Positions 9,988 through 31,753 of a DNA stretch of 33,280 bases are shown one piece after another. The notes under the pieces are model-generated. The model was not told the origin of the DNA. It made no database searches and saw only the letters and a program-made list of their open reading frames with translations. The position numbers and the translations under genes were made by a program. The DNA comes from an uncultured Acidobacteriota bacterium. GTDB taxonomy: Bacteria > Acidobacteriota > Thermoanaerobaculia > Multivoradales > SZUA-115. The stretch is from assembly GCA_937867335.1 (NCBI GenBank), contig CALMKX010000172.1, positions 1-33,280 of the forward strand, read 5' to 3'. How positions within the stretch are numbered: position 1 is the stretch's first letter; every line of letters starts with the position of its first letter.

Positions 9988-10183
9988 AAAAACGCATCCC
10001 CCGTGCAGCCGTGTGGGCTGCCGCGTCTAGAACCTGAAACGCGCCAGGTGGGTGTCCGCTCCACGAGCCATTAGCGTCCCCGTCCAGGCGGGGCTGGCAC
10101 AAGCCACGCGGGTAGAAGACTCCCAGAGAGAAAATGTTGGTTCTACAGTGGGTCTACCCATCACCAACAGCACAGGGGATGCA
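9988..10183 (-). ncRNA. ssrS: 6S RNA candidate (RNA polymerase regulator)
   Basis: About 195 nt in the zapA-rny gap, on the same strand. The ends pair in a 13-bp closing stem: GCATCCCCTGTGC (10182-10170) with GCACGGGGGATGC (10006-9994), one wobble. It is followed at once by a run of five T's (9992-9988), as in an intrinsic end. The middle is a long imperfect hairpin with an open central region, and its tip contains CCCCG-CCTGGA-CGGGG flanked by GCCA/TGGC. Size, long-rod shape and position directly downstream of zapA match 6S RNA, which mimics an open promoter and holds housekeeping RNA polymerase in slow growth. It is likely processed or transcribed with zapA. A covariance-model hit would settle it. 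Confidence 0.72.
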
Positions 10184-23061: not shown

Positions 23062-23134
23062 GCCGAGTCGCTAGGGAGTTCGAGTGGCAGGCGAGCGCCC
23101 TGGAGCGAGCAACAACCGAGAGGCTTGTCGGACA

Positions 23135-24841
23135 GTGACCAGCAAAGGAACACGGAAGTGGGCTGCACGGCCAGGAGGTTGTGCGCTTCTCGGGGTAGCT
23201 CTCGCCCTGGTGAGCACTTTCAGGAGTGCAACCGCTGCCGAGGAGAGCGGAACCGAGCAGATTCCGCAGGTTGCCATCCTTGCTGCTCCCACTCCCCCTG
23301 GAGCTAGGGCCCCTGCCCTTGCCGTCGAAGGGCCCACCACCGTCACCAAGGAACACCAGATTCTGCTCACCTGGCTCGAGCCCGGCCAAGACGCGATGCG
23401 GCTGCGCTTCTCTCGCCACTCGTCGGCAGGCTGGAGCCCACCTTTGACCGTTGCGGAAGGCCTGGCGAGCCCGCTGCCAGGAGATTCGTCTTCGCTCGCC
23501 CTGATCGAAACCCAGGGTGTGCGCCGCACCCTCCTCGCGCGAACCGGCGAAGTTCTCTCCCACTCCGGAGACGGCGGACTCACCTGGAGCCGACTCCCGG
23601 CCCCTCCGCTCGCCTTCGCCTCCTTCGCGGGAGCCGACGATGCCGCGTGGGTCTTCTGGCCAAAGCTCCGAACCGACGGCACCACCGAGCTCCATGGCTC
23701 TCCGGTGATGACTGGCGAGGCCGTGCTGGCCTCGGCCGTGGCACCCGGAGTGCCAAGCTCCGCAGCCACCACCTGGGATGGCCCGGTGGTGGTGTTCCGC
23801 AGCAGTGGCTCCCAGCCCGCTAGCCTCGCCGTCGTGCGCCGCGAGGCAGGCCGCTGGCTGCCTCCGGTTCCACTCGAGGGCAGCGCGGCGCTCTCAGAAG
23901 ACGAGATCGAGAGCGCTCCTCGGCTAGCCGCCTGGCATCGCGAAGTGGTGGTCGCTTGGCATGCCGGGAACGGGCAGGTACTGGCCGCTTTCTCGGCGGA
24001 CTCGGGACGCAGCTTCGGCAAGCCGATCGAAGTGGCCGCTGGCGATCCGAAGTCCCGCCCGGAGGGCTCGCCGGCGCTGGCGATCACCGAGAGCGAAGCA
24101 CTCGTCTTGTGGTCCTCCGCGGGGACAGACGGCGCAACCCGGCTGAGTTTGGCGCGGGTCCGGCCAGAGGGCCAGCTGGGCGATCCGCTGGAAGTGATGA
24201 GGCTCGAGCCCCGCGCTCTTGCGGGCGAGCTAGGAATGGCTCTCGCCGGAGACCGGCTGGTCGTGGCCTGGCAGGAAGGAGAGCCCCCCCAGGTACGCCT
24301 CCTCGAGGTGCCTCTCGAGCTCCTTCCGGCGGCCCGCGAGCGCAAGCCCCAGCAGCCGGTACCGGCCTATTCCGGCCATGGCCGAGTGGGCGAATCCGTT
24401 CCCGCGACTGAAGTGATGTCGCTCGAAGGAGAGCGAGCCTCTCTCGCCCAGCTCCGGGGGCAGCCCTTGCTGCTCAACTTCTGGGCCACCTGGTGCCAGC
24501 CCTGCCTGGCGGAGATGGCGGAGCTCACCAACCTTGCCAGCCGCTACGCCCAGGCGGGGCTGGTGGTCGTGGCGGCCAGCGTGGACGATCCTGCAGCCCG
24601 GGAGAGGGTGGCTCGATTCACCAAGGAGCGGCAGCTACCCTTTCCGATCTGGCTCGACCCGGAGACTCGCCTTGCCGGAGACTTACGAGTGCAGACCTTG
24701 CCGGTGACCTTCGTGATCGATCGCCAAGGGCGCATTCTCTGGCGTCAGGACGAGCCGGTCCAGCCGAACGACCCCAAGCTCGAGACGATTCTGCGACTGG
24801 CGATCGGAAGTCCCGCGGCGGATACGACCGCCGCCCCTTGA
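23135..24841 (+). CDS. Secreted beta-propeller fused to a TlpA-like thioredoxin domain
   Basis: A 568-residue exported protein. The GTG at 23135 gives a good signal peptide (basic start, core GCALLGVALALVS, cleavage near ATA-AE). Residues ~40-390 contain sialidase/BNR-like repeats (LLTWLEPGQDAMRLRFSRHS, LTVAEG, SGDGGLTWSRLPAP, ADSGRSFGKPIEVAAG, LVVAWQEG). Residues ~415-560 are a TlpA/ResA-type thioredoxin domain with WCQPC (Cys454 and Cys457), the cis-Pro segment QTLPVTFVIDRQGRIL, and ASVDD. The domain is probably a thiol reductase outside the cytoplasm, acting on disulphides or in cytochrome c or copper-protein maturation. The SCO and multicopper oxidase genes lie just beyond a shared terminator on the opposite strand, which makes a copper/redox link possible but unproven. 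Confidence 0.82.
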   Translation: MTSKGTRKWAARPGGCALLGVALALVSTFRSATAAEESGTEQIPQVAILAAPTPPGARAPALAVEGPTTVTKEHQILLTWLEPGQDAMRLRFSRHSSAGWSPPLTVAEGLASPLPGDSSSLALIETQGVRRTLLARTGEVLSHSGDGGLTWSRLPAPPLAFASFAGADDAAWVFWPKLRTDGTTELHGSPVMTGEAVLASAVAPGVPSSAATTWDGPVVVFRSSGSQPASLAVVRREAGRWLPPVPLEGSAALSEDEIESAPRLAAWHREVVVAWHAGNGQVLAAFSADSGRSFGKPIEVAAGDPKSRPEGSPALAITESEALVLWSSAGTDGATRLSLARVRPEGQLGDPLEVMRLEPRALAGELGMALAGDRLVVAWQEGEPPQVRLLEVPLELLPAARERKPQQPVPAYSGHGRVGESVPATEVMSLEGERASLAQLRGQPLLLNFWATWCQPCLAEMAELTNLASRYAQAGLVVVAASVDDPAARERVARFTKERQLPFPIWLDPETRLAGDLRVQTLPVTFVIDRQGRILWRQDEPVQPNDPKLETILRLAIGSPAADTTAAP

Positions 24842-24882: not shown

Positions 24883-25491
24883 CTACTGAGCTGGGGAAGA
24901 GCCCAGTGCGGAACGGGCCTCCCGAGCCTCCTTGGCTTCCGTGGGGCCGAAAGCCAACCGCAGCAGCCACTCCTTGAGGCGCTTGGCGAAGAGCTGACTG
25001 CGAGGGGAATCGCCCAGAGCCGCGTCCCCTTCACTCACCGCTGCCGCCAAGTCCTGCGAAAACTGGGAGCTCGCCACGCTCGGGTCATGGTCGCTCTGGC
25101 GATCAGCGTGGAAGGAGCCCCGAATCCGTTTCACGGCGCTGGCCGCCCAGCTTTGGAAGCTCTCTTGCGCCGGCCCGGTCAGTCCCAAGAAGACGGACGT
25201 CTTCTCGATGGCCTGGGTGCGGAACTCGGCGATGGAGATCCGGTCGCCGTGCTCCCAGCGCTGCAACTCTTCGAACTCGGCCCAGAGGTGCTCATGGTCG
25301 CGAACATCAGCCATCTTGAGGCCAGGTATACCCGGTTGGAACTCCGGCTCGGCTGGAGACTGCCCTGCCTGAGCTTCGCTGGCACTAGCCGGCAGCCAGC
25401 CTGCACTGACCCAGGCGAACAGCATCAGCAGCATCAGCCACCCTGGGCCCAAAGAGCCGCTCGCAACCTGCTGCTTCCGCAGTTCGCTCAT
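24883..25491 (-). CDS. Small secreted/anchored protein at the end of the oxidase-SCO operon
   Basis: A 202-residue protein of unknown function. ATG at 25491 overlaps the SCO stop (ATGA), so the two are translationally coupled. An N-terminal hydrophobic stretch (LMLLMLFAWVSAGWL, ~17-32) is followed by PASASEA, consistent with a signal peptide. The rest is polar and helical, with EFEELQRWEHGDRISIAEFRTQAIEKTSVFLGLTGPAQESFQSWAASAVKRI in the middle. No cysteine or heme motif is present. Its position downstream of SCO suggests an accessory role in the same secreted copper/redox process. Confidence 0.65.
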   Translation of the reverse strand: MSELRKQQVASGSLGPGWLMLLMLFAWVSAGWLPASASEAQAGQSPAEPEFQPGIPGLKMADVRDHEHLWAEFEELQRWEHGDRISIAEFRTQAIEKTSVFLGLTGPAQESFQSWAASAVKRIRGSFHADRQSDHDPSVASSQFSQDLAAAVSEGDAALGDSPRSQLFAKRLKEWLLRLAFGPTEAKEAREARSALGSSPAQ

Positions 25492-26312
25492 GGCGCGTCG
25501 CCCACCTCTCCGGGAAGTCGGCCGATGGTGTCCGTCGAGCCGGCCTCGGGAGCCATCCAGGCCAGCAACCGGGCGATCTGGCGAGAGTCCGAGAGTGACG
25601 GCACCGAGCCCCACCACCGTTTCGGCTCGTTGCCCATCTTGACCGTGCCGATATGGTTGGTCAGGTCAGCGTCGAGAGCCGGATCGCTCCAGGCGAACCC
25701 GAGCTTCAGGCGCAGCTGCTCGAGATCCTCGGGGTTGCCGGTCAGGAACAGCCAACCTGGCCCAACATCGTAGCGGCTGGCGTACTCGGCCAACACCTCC
25801 GGAGTGTCATTCTCCGGCTCCAGAGTCAGCGAGTAAAACCACACATCCTTGCCCATCCGATCACCCAACAAGTGTTGAACCTTCACGAGGTTCTGGGTGA
25901 TGCCGGGTCAACGCCCCTTGCACGAGGCATACATGAAATTGATCATGACGATCTTGCCCTTGAGCAGATCATCGTAGAACCGAACGTTCCTGCCCTGATG
26001 CGTCTTCAACACCACGTTGGGGAAACGGTCGGCGAAGGGGTTCGGCCCCCACTCTTCGACCGGTGGCACCACACCGACAGCTGCCGACTCGCTCCCTTCC
26101 AGGGAAGCCGCAGCAGGCTCCGTGGACGGGTGCATCTCGTGGCAGGGCATCGGCTCGGCAGCCGGGGCCGGTTCGCTGGCCACAGGGGCCGCCGTTACCG
26201 CCGCCTGAGCGCGAGACGGGCTCGCGCAGAAGGTGGCGGCAACGACGACCAGAGCGGCAATCGCGCCGGCGGCAGCCTTGTGGCTAAGGCTCTGCGACGC
26301 AGGCGACATCAT
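25488..26312 (-). CDS. SCO1/SenC-family copper/redox protein with in-frame UGA, candidate selenoprotein
   Basis: A 274-residue exported protein if UGA at 25910-25908 is read as selenocysteine; a standard reading gives two pieces (to 25908, and 25488 to about 25886). Signal peptide ~1-36. The SCO thioredoxin fold begins near FPNVVLKTHQGRNVRFYDDLLKGK and IVMINFMYAS. The copper motif, normally CxxxCP, reads C131-K-G-R-U135-P with Sec replacing the second Cys. The frame is preserved, and family sequence resumes at once: PGITQNLVKVQHLLGDRMGKDVWFYSLTLEPENDTPEVL, then the conserved His in LTNH220IG. SCO proteins carry copper to oxidases or reduce thiols. The ATG at 26312 has GGAGG nine bases upstream and lies inside the end of the oxidase gene (29-base overlap). 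A stem-loop follows the UGA. The alternative is a nonsense mutation or a sequencing error. Confidence 0.85.
25860..25901 (-). promoter_or_regulatory. SECIS-like stem-loop after the UGA of the SCO gene
   Basis: Six nt after the UGA, ATCACCCA pairs perfectly with TGGGTGAT. Inside it GAACC pairs with GGTTC, and a U-A pair closes the loop CGUGA, with G at loop position 2. A 9-nt bulge lies on the 3' side. The apical loop begins ~20 nt after the UGA, within the range known for bacterial SECIS elements (18 nt in E. coli fdhF). The 3' arm uses GTT, CAA, TTG, TTG, GGT and GAT codons, unusual among GC-ending neighbours, which suggests selection on the RNA. Confidence 0.65.
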
Positions 26313-29124
26313 GATCGACAACCTCCCAAAGAAGCATCATGGCGTGGTCCTCGTGCACCGTGTTGTGACAGTGCATGGGGTACTCGTTGAGCCAATCGCG
26401 CTGGCGGATCGTCAGCGTGATCGAGTCTCCGGGCCGCAGCAGAGCCACATCCTTGCGCATCGACTCGAAGTCCGGCGGTGCAGCACCATCTCGGACCTCG
26501 AACTGGTGCTCTTCCAGGTGAATATGAATCGGATGCTCCCAATCCCGTGACGCGTTGGTCAACGTCCAACGCTCGGCCGAGCCGCGCCGGGTCTGGAATC
26601 GAGGCAGGAAATCGAACAGCCTGCCGTTGATCGTCCAGCCGCCGTTCTTGTTGTCGAAGACGAAAGTCCGCTCGCAGCTGACCTCGTTGTTGGCGATCGT
26701 CGGCTTCTCGCGCATCGTCTCCGGGACGCGGCTGTTGTCCGGCACGGGCCCGCCAACCACCCTGAATTGCAGCACCTTCAGGGCATAGCTTGAAGTCATC
26801 GGAGCGAGAACGCCGCTTCGCCCCTTGCCGCTGGTCTGGTCCGCGATGTCCATCAGGTTGATGCGGTCGCCGTGATGGAACTGACTGAAGTCGATCACGA
26901 TGTCGAACCGCTCGGCGGGGCTGATGCTCACGCTGTCCACCGACACCGGATGCTCGAGCAGGTTGCCGTCGTTGCCCACCAGCACCATCTCAGTGGCCGG
27001 TGCGTCGCTGGCGCACTCGACGCCGTCGCTGCCCACGGGACAGGTCTTGAAGGTGTAGATCCGCGAGGGTCCGGTGTCCACCACCCGGAACCTGTACTTG
27101 CGGCGCAGCACCAGCATGTACGGCGTCACCGCACCGTTGACCACGATGTGCTCACCCAGGAAGCCGTCGAGGTTGAACGGGTCGAAGCTCAGCTTGTGAG
27201 TTACCGGGTCGAACCTCTTGTCTGAAACCGCCAGAGGCACGTCGAACGGCCCGCTCGGCAAGCGGAGGGCTGCCGGGTTGGGATCGTGTTCGTTGCCCGA
27301 GTCGAGCTCGTCGTAGATCAAGAAGCTGCCCACCAAGCCCTTGTAGGTGTTCTGCGACGTGAAATCCGGTCGGTGGTCGTGGTACCAGAGGTGACCCAGG
27401 GCTTCGCGCGGATCGCCTCCCGCAGGGTACATGGCGTAGTGGTGGTCCAGATAGCGGCCCCGGTCGTAGAACATCAACGGGCCGCCGTCGCTCTCGGGAG
27501 CCGAGTGGAAGTTGTGCAGGTGCGTGGTGATCTGCGGAATGCCGAAACCGTCGTTGCCCGGGAAGCCCGCGGGCAGGTTGTTGTGAATCCGCACCACGAT
27601 CGGCTTGCCATAGTGCTCGTGGAAGGTCGGGCCCGGGCTGTAGGTGCGCCCGTTGCGCGTTCCGTAGCCCCAGACGGTCGAGGGCTGCATCAGCTCCGGG
27701 TGGAACTGATGTTCGAACGAGCGTACGTACATCTCGTACTGCTTGACCGGCCGAAAGTCCGCGTACCGCTGAAGGGCACGGTCCGGAGGCCGGTTGGCAC
27801 CGGGCTCTCCAGGGTAGAGGTTGCACCCATCGGTGGGGTCGTTCGCCGGTGGATACTCCGCCTTGCAGTTGTCGTTGGGATCCACCGCAGGCACCAACTG
27901 GCGCACGCGAGCAACTTGGTCAGCGTCGGGCGGAAGCGGTAGGCGCTGGATGAACGGCGTGAGGTGGAGCTCGGGTACTTCGCACAGCTGCCCGGTTTCA
28001 CGCAGGCAGACAAAGTTCTGCAGGATGTCTTCGTCGACGGTAGGAACTGCGACTGCGTCTGCGCTCACTGACCCCGCACGGGGGTCGATGAGGATGGGTC
28101 AAACCACGAATGGAGGCCCGTCCAATGCCTCGTTCTGCGGAGTGGAAGGGTCATCGGGGCGTGCCGCATGGCCTGCGCCGTCCACCTGCCGGCGAGTGCG
28201 CACGTTGACGCAGATCTGGCCGCGCTCTCTCGACACCACGCCGGGAATGTCATTGCGCGGGTCCGGGTTGGGCAGGCCGTGCGCACCCGGAAGGGCGTTG
28301 TGCACCACCACTTGGCTGGCGCCCTGGCCGGCGATCATGTCCGGCCCGGCGACGTCCAAGATCTCCCGCACACGGCGGAAGATCGGCGTGCCATCGGTGT
28401 CGACGCCGTTGCGGGCGGCGAGCTTCGCCATCTCGTCCCGGCATTCCGCCGTGTTGACGTCCGGGCCGTCCCAGGTCACGAAGACGATACGCCACAGCTG
28501 CAGCGGGTTCTTGGTGAGGTAGCCGTTGCCGGTGTCGAAGATGTTGTCCTGGCGCCGGTTGCAGGGAGCCGGATCGAGCAGGTCGCCGGAAGCCGGGTTG
28601 CCGTTGCAGCCTGCCACGGTGTTCGCAGCCTGCTTCTGGCGCGGGAACAGGAAGACGAAGGAACGGTTGGTGAGGTCCTTGGTCTCCTGGTTGAGGAACG
28701 CGCTCTCGAAGAAGAAGGCCGGCGGATCCGGATAGAAGAGCAGCGACCCGGCCGCGTTGGTGCCCATGTTGTGGATGCGGATGCGGGTGTCATCGAGGAA
28801 GCGGCTGTCCGGTGCTACGCCAGTGCCCACGAAGGCGTCGCCCGGGCCACGGTAGAAGGCGCCGAAGCGGCTCGGGCCGGTGGCTCCATTCTCCTGGTTG
28901 CGCAGCTCCTGGCCGTTGATCCCATTGGCAGAGTAGAACGCGTCCGAGAATTGGAATCCCGGCCCACGACCCAACTCGCTGCCACTCTGGACAAAGTCCG
29001 CCTCACCAGGAGCGAAAGTATCACCGCCAATACTGTTTTGGGCCCACGCTGCCCCTACTGGCAACAAGGCCAGCAGGGCCAGCGCGAGAAGCCTTGTAGG
29101 CAAAGGCCCTCTCCATCGTCTCAT
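26284..29124 (-). CDS. Secreted multicopper oxidase with in-frame UGA, candidate selenoprotein
   Basis: A 946-residue protein if UGA at 28101-28099 (codon 342) is decoded as Sec. Standard reading gives an N-terminal piece (28099-29124) and an oxidase piece (26284 to a GTG at 28068). The N-terminal piece has GGAGG before ATG 29124 and a signal peptide (cleavage near AWA-Q, ~28). The oxidase piece has none, yet this enzyme class acts outside the cytoplasm. Frame is continuous: PPFVV-U-PILIDPRAG. Copper ligands follow: THLHNFH (~530), WYHDH (~579), HPIHIH, and the type 1 motif HCHNTVHEDHAM with Cys919. The substrate is unknown; the large size recalls metal-oxidising multicopper oxidases, which is only a guess. 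Residues ~29-400 match no family I can name. The SCO gene overlaps its 3' end by 29 bases. The alternative is two separate genes with a chance in-frame junction. Confidence 0.8.
28070..28086 (-). promoter_or_regulatory. SECIS-like stem-loop after the UGA of the multicopper oxidase gene
   Basis: GACCCC-CGUGC-GGGGUC is a perfect 6-bp stem with a 5-nt loop whose second base is G. The stem starts 12 nt after the UGA and the loop 18 nt after it. The loop begins CGUG, as in the element of the SCO gene, and both lie downstream of a UGA followed by a Pro codon. A rival explanation is a hairpin near a reinitiation site, since GTG at 28068 follows directly. Confidence 0.55.
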
Positions 29125-29312
29125 CGGGAAGCCTCCAGAAAAAGTCAACGGACCCTGAAGCGAGTCTCGCTGATCGCGGATGTTATGTGAGATTCTACAT
29201 CAGCTTCCCTTCTACTGCTCCTCGCTCCGGACACGCAGGGCCTGGCGCCTTGCTCGCCGAGCCTTGACTCCCTCGCCTGGAGCCACCCCTAGAGGGTCGA
29301 GGGCAGCGACCG

Positions 29313-29338: not shown

Positions 29339-31639
29339 CTACGGCCCGACCACCCAGCCGGCCAGGTCGCCGGACTCGAAGCCGTCCGAGAAGATCGCCC
29401 CGGTCTGCGCCTTCCAATGCTGGAGGAGCTGCTGCAGCGCCTGCGGCGCGTTGGTGGCCGCGGGGCCTCCTGCCTGGTTGGTGCTGTTCACGCCGTGGCA
29501 GCCGTCGCAGGCCCGGAGCTCCCCGGGCTGGAAGCCGAGCCAGTAGCGCTCCCGCACCACCGGCGTGCCCGTGGGGCTCACCAGCTGCCAGGAGAGGGCC
29601 CGGCGGGCCGGCACGAAGGCCGCCACCGAACCATCCAGCGCCACGGCCGTGCTTCCCGCCGGGCCGCCCGGGTCCGGCGGATTCGCCCCCAGCGCCGCTG
29701 CGTCGTGCAACACCTGCGCGAGCACCCGCCGGCCCGGCCGCGGGTTCACGGTGCCGCCCAGGCCCCGGATCTGATCCCCCTGGAACAGCTGCAGATGGCC
29801 GATCGCGTAGATCGTGCCGCCTGCTCCCAGCGTCTGCACGCCGCCCGGCACTTTCAGGTTGAACGGTTGCTGGCGGTCCGCGTGGTCCCGGAACGTGCCG
29901 TTGCGCACCGAGAGCAGGGCCAGCCCTCGGCTCGCGAGGTCCTTCGAGAGCGTCCGCGGCGCCACGCCCTGGGCCAAGAACACTCCCGCCTCCTGCGCCG
30001 GCAGCGCGGGCTTGGGCTGCGGCGGCACCGGTCGCGCTCGCACCTCCACCGGGTCGAGCTCCCACATCTCGCCGCTGTAGCTCACCAGCACGTCTGGATC
30101 CCAGTAGGAGAGAGTCTTGTTGATCCCGGCCGTCAGCGCCGTGCCGGCGCGCAGGTAGCCGTCCGGCCCGTTGGTCAAGAGCTTCAGGCGGAAGCGGTAG
30201 TTCGGCTGCGGGTTCGACCGCGAGCCCAAGTTGCGCACGCCGTGCGTTTCGGTGGTGTGCGCCACCACCACCCGCCCGTCCGCCAGCGGCAGCGGCTCGC
30301 GGTAGTGGCCGGTGTGCTCCGGCGGCGGGTTCTGGCCGTCCGGCACCGTGGTACCGGTGGCCGGATGGGTGAGGTAGGAAACCGAGATCTGGTCCGCCGA
30401 GAGGCCCGGCGGCGCTGCGAGCGCCACCACCTGGCCGGAAGCGTGGCTGGTGAACTCCGGCGCCTCGATCCCCAGGTAGGTGCCCGCGGCCAGCACGTCC
30501 TCGCGGATCTGCAGCAGGTTCTCGAGCTCGTTCGGGTTGTGGCGGCCCGAGGTCTCGGCGATGAACTCGCTCAGGTTGCCGTCGTCGTTGAGCGCGCGGT
30601 TGAAGTAGCCGTGGAGCTCGTGGCGGCCGATGTGGTTCAGCGTCTCCTCCCCCGTGCCGTCCTGCGAGATCTGCCAGGGGAAGAAGTGGTTGAAGGTGTG
30701 CCCCTCGAGGTTGGTGCCGGCGAGCAAGTCCTGCCGCGCCGGCCGCGGCTCCGGGTAGACCTCGTCGCGCACGGGCAGGGCTGCGGCCCCGGCCGCTTCG
30801 CTGGCGTAGTTGAAGGTGCCGTAGGTATCCCCCGAGAGCACGTCGGTGTCCGCCTGCTGGTCCCGCTGGAGGTGATCCCAGCGGGTGAAGATCACCCGGC
30901 CGTAGCGGTCGAGCGTGGGGTGAAAGAGCCCCGAAGGCGAATGCTCCAGCAGCTTGAGCTCACCGGTGGCAGGGTTCAGGCTCCACAGGCCGGTGTTGGT
31001 GGCGGTGGACTCGTACTCGTCCAGCTGCGGGTAGAGATGGGCCTCGCCGGAGCGGGGGCGGTCCGACACGAACAGGATGCGCCCGTCCGAGGCGTAGATC
31101 GGCATCACGTTGTTGGCGTTGCCGGGCTGGTGCGCCACCTTGGTGATGGCCGCCGTCTGCCCGCTGCCGAGGCCGGTCACTTCGTAGAGCTGCCAGAAGT
31201 AGGTGCCGGTCTGGAACTGCTGGGTGGGCGCTCCCACCACCATGCTGAACACCGCCTTGGTGCCGGAGAAGTCCACCGAGGGGTTGCGCACGGCGATCGC
31301 CCCGGAGCCCTGGAAGCCGGTGGTGCCGTAGCCGGCCTCCTGGGTGAGGTTGCGCAGCGTGCCGTTGGGGTAGCGCAGATAGAGATCCCCGCCCCGGGCG
31401 GCTTCCACCAACCCGCCCCCCTGGTTGGCGAACACCGAGCCGATGGTGGCGAAGTCGTACGGCACCGGCGTCTGGGTAACGAAGAGGATGGGGTTCGGCA
31501 GGGCGCCACCGCCGTCGGCAGCCCGAGCGGCCACCGGGCCGGTCGGCGGTGCGCCGGCGACTCCTTCCGTGCAGAAGACTGTGGGTGTGAGGATCAGTAG
31601 GCTGAGAAAGATCCCGGCAAGTCGACTCGAAGCAAGCAT
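29339..31639 (-). CDS. Secreted hydrazine-synthase-alpha-like / PD40 protein with one CxxCH heme motif
   Basis: A 766-residue exported protein. The ATG at 31639 has GGAGGGG upstream and gives a signal peptide (LAGIFLSLLILTPTVFC). Residues ~35-330 are PD40-like propeller sequence with the segment RILFVSDRPRSGEAHLYPQLDEYESTATNTGLWSLNPATGE, characteristic of proteins annotated as hydrazine synthase alpha subunit-like. Near the end is one heme-c motif, C711-DGC-H715. The C-terminus IFSDGFESGDLAGWVV resembles a tail common on secreted proteins of this lineage. True hydrazine synthase alpha has more heme sites and two partner subunits, none of which are here, so hydrazine formation is not supported. 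A cytochrome c-like role is likely. It lies upstream of the oxidase-SCO genes on the same strand, 214 bases away, and may share their redox function. Confidence 0.78.
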   Translation of the reverse strand: MLASSRLAGIFLSLLILTPTVFCTEGVAGAPPTGPVAARAADGGGALPNPILFVTQTPVPYDFATIGSVFANQGGGLVEAARGGDLYLRYPNGTLRNLTQEAGYGTTGFQGSGAIAVRNPSVDFSGTKAVFSMVVGAPTQQFQTGTYFWQLYEVTGLGSGQTAAITKVAHQPGNANNVMPIYASDGRILFVSDRPRSGEAHLYPQLDEYESTATNTGLWSLNPATGELKLLEHSPSGLFHPTLDRYGRVIFTRWDHLQRDQQADTDVLSGDTYGTFNYASEAAGAAALPVRDEVYPEPRPARQDLLAGTNLEGHTFNHFFPWQISQDGTGEETLNHIGRHELHGYFNRALNDDGNLSEFIAETSGRHNPNELENLLQIREDVLAAGTYLGIEAPEFTSHASGQVVALAAPPGLSADQISVSYLTHPATGTTVPDGQNPPPEHTGHYREPLPLADGRVVVAHTTETHGVRNLGSRSNPQPNYRFRLKLLTNGPDGYLRAGTALTAGINKTLSYWDPDVLVSYSGEMWELDPVEVRARPVPPQPKPALPAQEAGVFLAQGVAPRTLSKDLASRGLALLSVRNGTFRDHADRQQPFNLKVPGGVQTLGAGGTIYAIGHLQLFQGDQIRGLGGTVNPRPGRRVLAQVLHDAAALGANPPDPGGPAGSTAVALDGSVAAFVPARRALSWQLVSPTGTPVVRERYWLGFQPGELRACDGCHGVNSTNQAGGPAATNAPQALQQLLQHWKAQTGAIFSDGFESGDLAGWVVGP

Positions 31640-31753
31640 TCGCAACCCCTCCAGGAAATTGTCACTCGGCAATAGCTTAGCAGTCGCGCCGGCAGGTCGG
31701 AGCCCTGATAGTCTCCGCCCTCGAGGTCAGGGGACTACCCAAGGAGACTGCAG

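Follow-up and report, generated by a model that had tools for sequence, protein, structure and literature searches.

A SCO1/SenC-family gene with UGA at its second motif cysteine, very probably encoding a previously undescribed selenoprotein

A SCO1/SenC-family gene from an uncultured Acidobacteriota bacterium contains one in-frame UGA, at the second cysteine of the family's copper-binding motif, and very probably encodes a previously undescribed selenoprotein in which selenium is predicted to lie in the copper site. The gene is carried by a stretch of 33,280 nucleotides (the window), which makes up the whole of contig C172 in a 5.56-Mb draft genome with a completeness of 97%. As the same UGA and the same hairpin occur in three other genomes with selenocysteine (Sec) machinery, the proposal of a preliminary description, that this is a candidate selenoprotein, is now supported by the UGA in four genomes, the hairpin, the machinery and selection downstream of the UGA; it remains a prediction from sequence. 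Insertion of Sec at UGA-135 is predicted with near certainty. The reading as a whole, a periplasmic Sec-containing SCO protein that would metallate the multicopper oxidase encoded beside it, is given a probability of about 0.9.

The SCO gene and its in-frame UGA

The features of the window that bear on this proposal are collected in Table 1. The window also contains a 6S RNA gene (9994-10181, minus strand; Rfam RF00013, 77.6 bits).

Table 1 Positions of the SCO gene, its motif codons, the hairpin and the neighbouring genes in the window
Feature	Positions	Strand	Remark
SCO1/SenC-family gene with one in-frame UGA	25488..26312	-	274 aa if read through
In-frame TGA, codon 135, predicted Sec	25908..25910	-	second Cys of CxxxC
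TGC, Cys131	25920..25922	-	first Cys of motif, from alignment
CAT, His220 (TNHIG)	25653..25655	-	third SCO copper ligand; aligns with conserved His of Cys homologues
bSECIS-like hairpin GAACCU-CGUGA-AGGUUC	25877..25893	-	6 bp, 5-nt loop, G then U
Multicopper oxidase	26284..28068	-	upstream neighbour, overlaps SCO start
Conserved 349-aa protein (hyp349), no Pfam/NCBIfam match	28099..29148	-	first gene of shared cluster
Small ORF, 202 aa, no known family	24883..25491	-	starts inside SCO stop (ATGA overlap)
Convergent gene, C-terminal TlpA/ResA-like thiol reductase domain (CxxC)	23084..24841	+	candidate SCO reductant

The gene boundaries (25488-26312) given in the preliminary description were correct, and so was its statement that the frame is the same on both sides of the UGA (25910-25908). 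A single frame includes both halves and the TGA, the context after readthrough being YASCKGRUPGITQNL, and the match to the Pfam model SCO1-SenC (PF02630; residues 111-210, E 2.7e-16, 60.2 bits against a cut-off of 22.8) runs across the TGA. Sequence matches in the PDB were to Sco proteins (1.7e-10), and in the best of these alignments the TGA stands opposite the second cysteine of C-x3-C. Two of the SCO copper ligands, Cys131 and His220, are kept and the third position is encoded by the UGA, so the CXXXC...H motif is complete only if residue 135 is Sec. The N terminus, as read from the translation, is hydrophobic and signal-like. The terminal stop is likewise TGA, in a 4-base overlap with the next ATG. 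An AlphaFold model of the protein (5 sequences) had a mean pLDDT of 40 and was too poor for use.

The product resembles the SCO1/SenC/PrrC chaperones (PF02630; B. subtilis YpmQ, 1xzo/1on4; human SCO1) in its thioredoxin-like family, the position of the motif, the histidine and the exported-looking N terminus, but differs from them in that the second cysteine is replaced by UGA, predicted to be read as Sec.

Relatives with the same UGA

The search covered 59 relatives, 149 genomes of the class, 396 of the phylum and one GTDB contig scan, as well as the class and the phylum to which a second UGA-containing member belongs. A TGA at the equivalent of codon 135 was found in four genomes in all, a sample of four members of which three are close: that of the window (motif CKGRU), G031 (CSERU, 77% identity to the SCO protein of the window; same order, another family), G149 (VBKG01000243.1; CKERU, 79%) and G590 (CTDSU, 53%). 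G149 is a metagenome-assembled genome (MAG) that bears the title Deltaproteobacteria bacterium DP_3 and is placed in Myxococcota. When the TGA column was left out of the alignment, a tree of 38 relatives still put the four UGA forms together in one clade (support 96/92), and all four keep the ligand histidine. The column of the TGA holds cysteine in 30 of the 34 relatives without UGA, which bears out the earlier placing of the UGA exactly at the second cysteine; the other 4 belong to one divergent clade, in which the two cysteines and the histidine are all missing.

The part of the protein 3' of the TGA is under purifying selection. Among the three close members dN downstream of the TGA is 0.15-0.17 and dS 0.73-1.38, and in comparisons with G590 the values are 0.45-0.51 and 0.92-1.17, giving dN/dS of about 0.1-0.2 and about 0.4-0.5 respectively. 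Decayed pseudogenes in relatives had been named beforehand as an outcome that would speak against a selenoprotein; what was found was three further genomes with the same TGA, an intact frame and this selection.

Some further loci were set aside as UGA forms: in L032-L034 and L082 the TGA either ends the reading frame or falls outside the conserved domain. A scan of viral contigs gave no relatives. Plasmids gave only relatives of <60% identity, and those inspected were annotated open frames and included no UGA forms.

Two other groups of SCO relatives were noted. A well-supported SCO-like clade (L013, L014, L015 and L017, from G033, G022, G001 and G044; example sequence SVRGNEVYPVT) lacks both cysteines and the ligand histidine, so that the usual copper binding is impossible. 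In L074, L091 and L092 the spacing of the cysteines is longer than in CxxxC, by one or two residues (CADGTC, CTAEAIC).

The downstream hairpin and the selenocysteine machinery

The published model of the bacterial SECIS (bSECIS) has a loop of 3-9 nt with G in its first two bases and a stem of 4-16 bp, at 16-37 nt from the UGA and with MFE <= -7.5 kcal/mol (PMC13188914). The preliminary description had reported a perfect stem-loop with a SECIS-like loop at the expected distance, and this agrees with the model in every respect: the hairpin of the window has 6 Watson-Crick pairs and a distance of 20 nt from the UGA to the start of the loop, and the form GAACCU-CGUG[A/C]-AGGUUC is found with this same spacing in 4/4 UGA-form genes (5-nt loop with G as its second base, stem of 6-7 bp, MFE -10.4 to -12.0 over 43 nt).

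An equally good hairpin at an allowed distance follows only 3-6% of the TGAs in the window and arises in 2-5% of cases when each peptide is recoded at random with synonymous codons. Whichever two UGA-form genes are compared, G590 included, they use the same synonymous codons in the hairpin (4/4 or 5/5); other downstream codons for shared residues are just 42-61% identical. Partial hairpins also occur in the Cys relatives, because the peptide NLVKVQ dictates part of the structure, and L089 has a perfect one, so the hairpin alone is modest evidence. An outer 8-bp stem (ATCACCCA/TGGGTGAT) is perfect in the window and lost in the relatives; only the 6-bp hairpin is therefore taken to be meaningful.

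A search of the genome of the window for selA, selB, selC and selD, as suggested in the preliminary description, found all four: SelA (522 bits), SelD (257 bits), a tRNA-Sec whose anticodon is UCA (69 bits against a gathering cut-off of 47) and a split SelB, of which the N-terminal half on contig C71 scored 288 bits, over the cut-off, and the C-terminal half begins at the first bases of contig C299. The selB pieces lie at L056 1-520 (C71) and L057 1-900 (C299). On C71 the N-terminal half runs into an unrelated pilin-like ORF on the other strand, suggesting an assembly misjoin. SelB was also above the cut-off in G031, G149 and G590, and SelA was present in both genomes tested for it, G031 and G149. 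A tRNA-Sec was located only in the genome of the window; an Rfam scan limited to the selA and selB contigs of the other genomes gave none on those contigs. A second candidate in the genome of the window (C333) proved to be a tRNA-Ser.

Could the TGA be a true stop, because the gene is a decayed pseudogene, was misread in sequencing or consists of two parts, the second restarting at the GTG at 25886? From this GTG an ORF of 132 aa is indeed open, and TGA ends 10 of the 20 ORFs checked in the window, so the genetic code is not simply changed. However, four assemblies share the TGA, although protein identity falls to about 53% among them, and the sequence 3' of it is under purifying selection, and thus a sequencing error or a pseudogene is, for practical purposes, not the explanation; an identical mistake would have had to arise separately four times, which is not credible. 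A split within the active-site motif, moreover, is expected to destroy the thioredoxin fold, and a true stop is regarded as very improbable. Most bacteria show some readthrough of UGA, so a selenium-free product in which a suppressor or near-cognate tRNA inserts another amino acid, such as Trp or Arg, may also be considered. This is thought less probable still, since the position is Cys in relatives, a SECIS-like hairpin and SelB go together in all four genomes and the full machinery is present in that of the window. Decoding as Sec is by far the better explanation of the UGA.

Gene neighbourhood and proposed role

The SCO gene shares an operon with the gene of a multicopper oxidase in which the customary His/Cys motifs of the copper sites (HLH, HDH, HPIHIH and HCH...HEDHAM) are all present. 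The order hyp349, multicopper oxidase, SCO gene and small ORF, with the TlpA/ResA-like gene beside it, is shared by the genome of the window, G031 and G149, and G590 has the first three genes. Identities are 70% (G031), 67% (G149) and 34% (G590) for hyp349, about 50% for the 202-aa ORF in G031 and G149, and 44% for the TlpA/ResA-like gene in the same two genomes. Upstream of the cluster in the window (29339-31672, minus strand) is a large secreted-looking protein with a match to PF18582, the middle domain of hydrazine synthase alpha (6.5e-9); it is not beside the cluster in G031, G149 or G590. In the Deltaproteobacteria MAG the multicopper oxidase (L060 6219-7882) is in two frames (residues 1-360 and 383-594), owing either to a frameshift or to misassembly.

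The Sco proteins that have been studied have cytochrome oxidase as their client, whereas that of the window is encoded with a multicopper oxidase. This pairing extends to Cys-type SCO relatives: the closest ones (50-58%; for example, L061 of a Bryobacteraceae and WP_202684573.1 of Skermanella mucosa) likewise adjoin a multicopper oxidase but have a Cys codon and not UGA. The pairing thus probably predates the change from Cys to Sec, and the neighbourhood does not explain the use of Sec.

The proposed pathway is as follows. UGA-135 would be decoded as Sec by SelB and tRNA-Sec, guided by the hairpin whose loop begins 20 nt downstream, and the product, presumably periplasmic, would carry a C-x3-U...H site. 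The copper ligands of SCO proteins are two Cys and a His, with a possible reductant role in addition (PMC9145763). By analogy, Cys131, Sec135 and His220 would form the copper site as in Cys-containing SCO proteins, and it is about an even question whether copper is bound through selenium; Cys131 and Sec135 would also form a thiol/selenenylsulfide redox pair. The copper would be handed to the product of the adjoining upstream gene, the multicopper oxidase, which gene order makes the rather probable client. As TlpA is reported to reduce Sco ahead of copper uptake (PMC9145763), the neighbouring TlpA/ResA-like protein might re-reduce the S-Se bond, a role that is suggested tentatively. The Sec prediction is well supported, and the remaining mechanism draws on analogy and gene context.

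It is also possible, though less probable, that Sec is inserted but that the protein is a thiol/selenol oxidoreductase that holds the cysteines of the oxidase, or another periplasmic client, in the reduced state, with binding of copper by selenium minor or absent. A reductase role has been proposed for SCO proteins, whose fold is that of thioredoxin (PMC9145763), most known selenoproteins have Sec in the thioredoxin-fold site of redox enzymes (PMC13188914), and three genomes have a gene with a thiol reductase domain beside the SCO gene. A purely oxidoreductase role fits less well with the retention of the copper-ligand histidine in all four members and with a copper enzyme as the immediate partner, and a Sec-containing chaperone for that enzyme is preferred.

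The preliminary description knew of no SCO selenoprotein with Sec at this position, in agreement with two catalogues: SCO is absent from the 2022 list of prokaryotic selenoproteins (PMC9312934) and from the 119 families and subfamilies of a 2026 review, in which there is also no CxxxU motif (PMC13188914). None of the NCBIfam models (June 2026) matches the SCO product, and a full-text search of largely open-access literature for SCO/SenC with selenocysteine returned nothing relevant. The gene thus represents a predicted Sec form, absent from earlier lists, of an established protein family. The nearest parallels are thioredoxin-fold selenoproteins (the UGC TlpA family, Prx-like UxxC and DsbG-like proteins), which have the same substitution of Sec for a redox Cys and a downstream bSECIS, but none of those listed is a SCO protein and none has CxxxU (PMC13188914 Table 1). 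Sec also occurs at or near a metal site in the unrelated CopZ-family (2Fe-2S) proteins, the SO_0444 Cu/Zn transporter, NiFeSe hydrogenase and formate dehydrogenase; in the last two it binds Ni or Mo/W, not copper.

To our knowledge there is no established example of a natural copper-selenocysteine site, and the Sec-containing SCO protein may be one. That the four members represent a copper chaperone family with a natural Sec ligand (Cys-Sec-His), of single origin and spread across distant lineages within a multicopper-oxidase operon, is put forward at slightly less than even odds. The Sec form would add a selenoprotein family beyond the catalogue of 119, and automatic annotation would cut its genes short at the motif. 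As a copper chaperone, SCO has received wide study from bacteria to human mitochondria, and it is a standing question whether its two cysteines are mainly copper ligands or a redox pair. A natural Sec variant would place selenium at the SCO cysteine site and so would allow a direct test of both roles.
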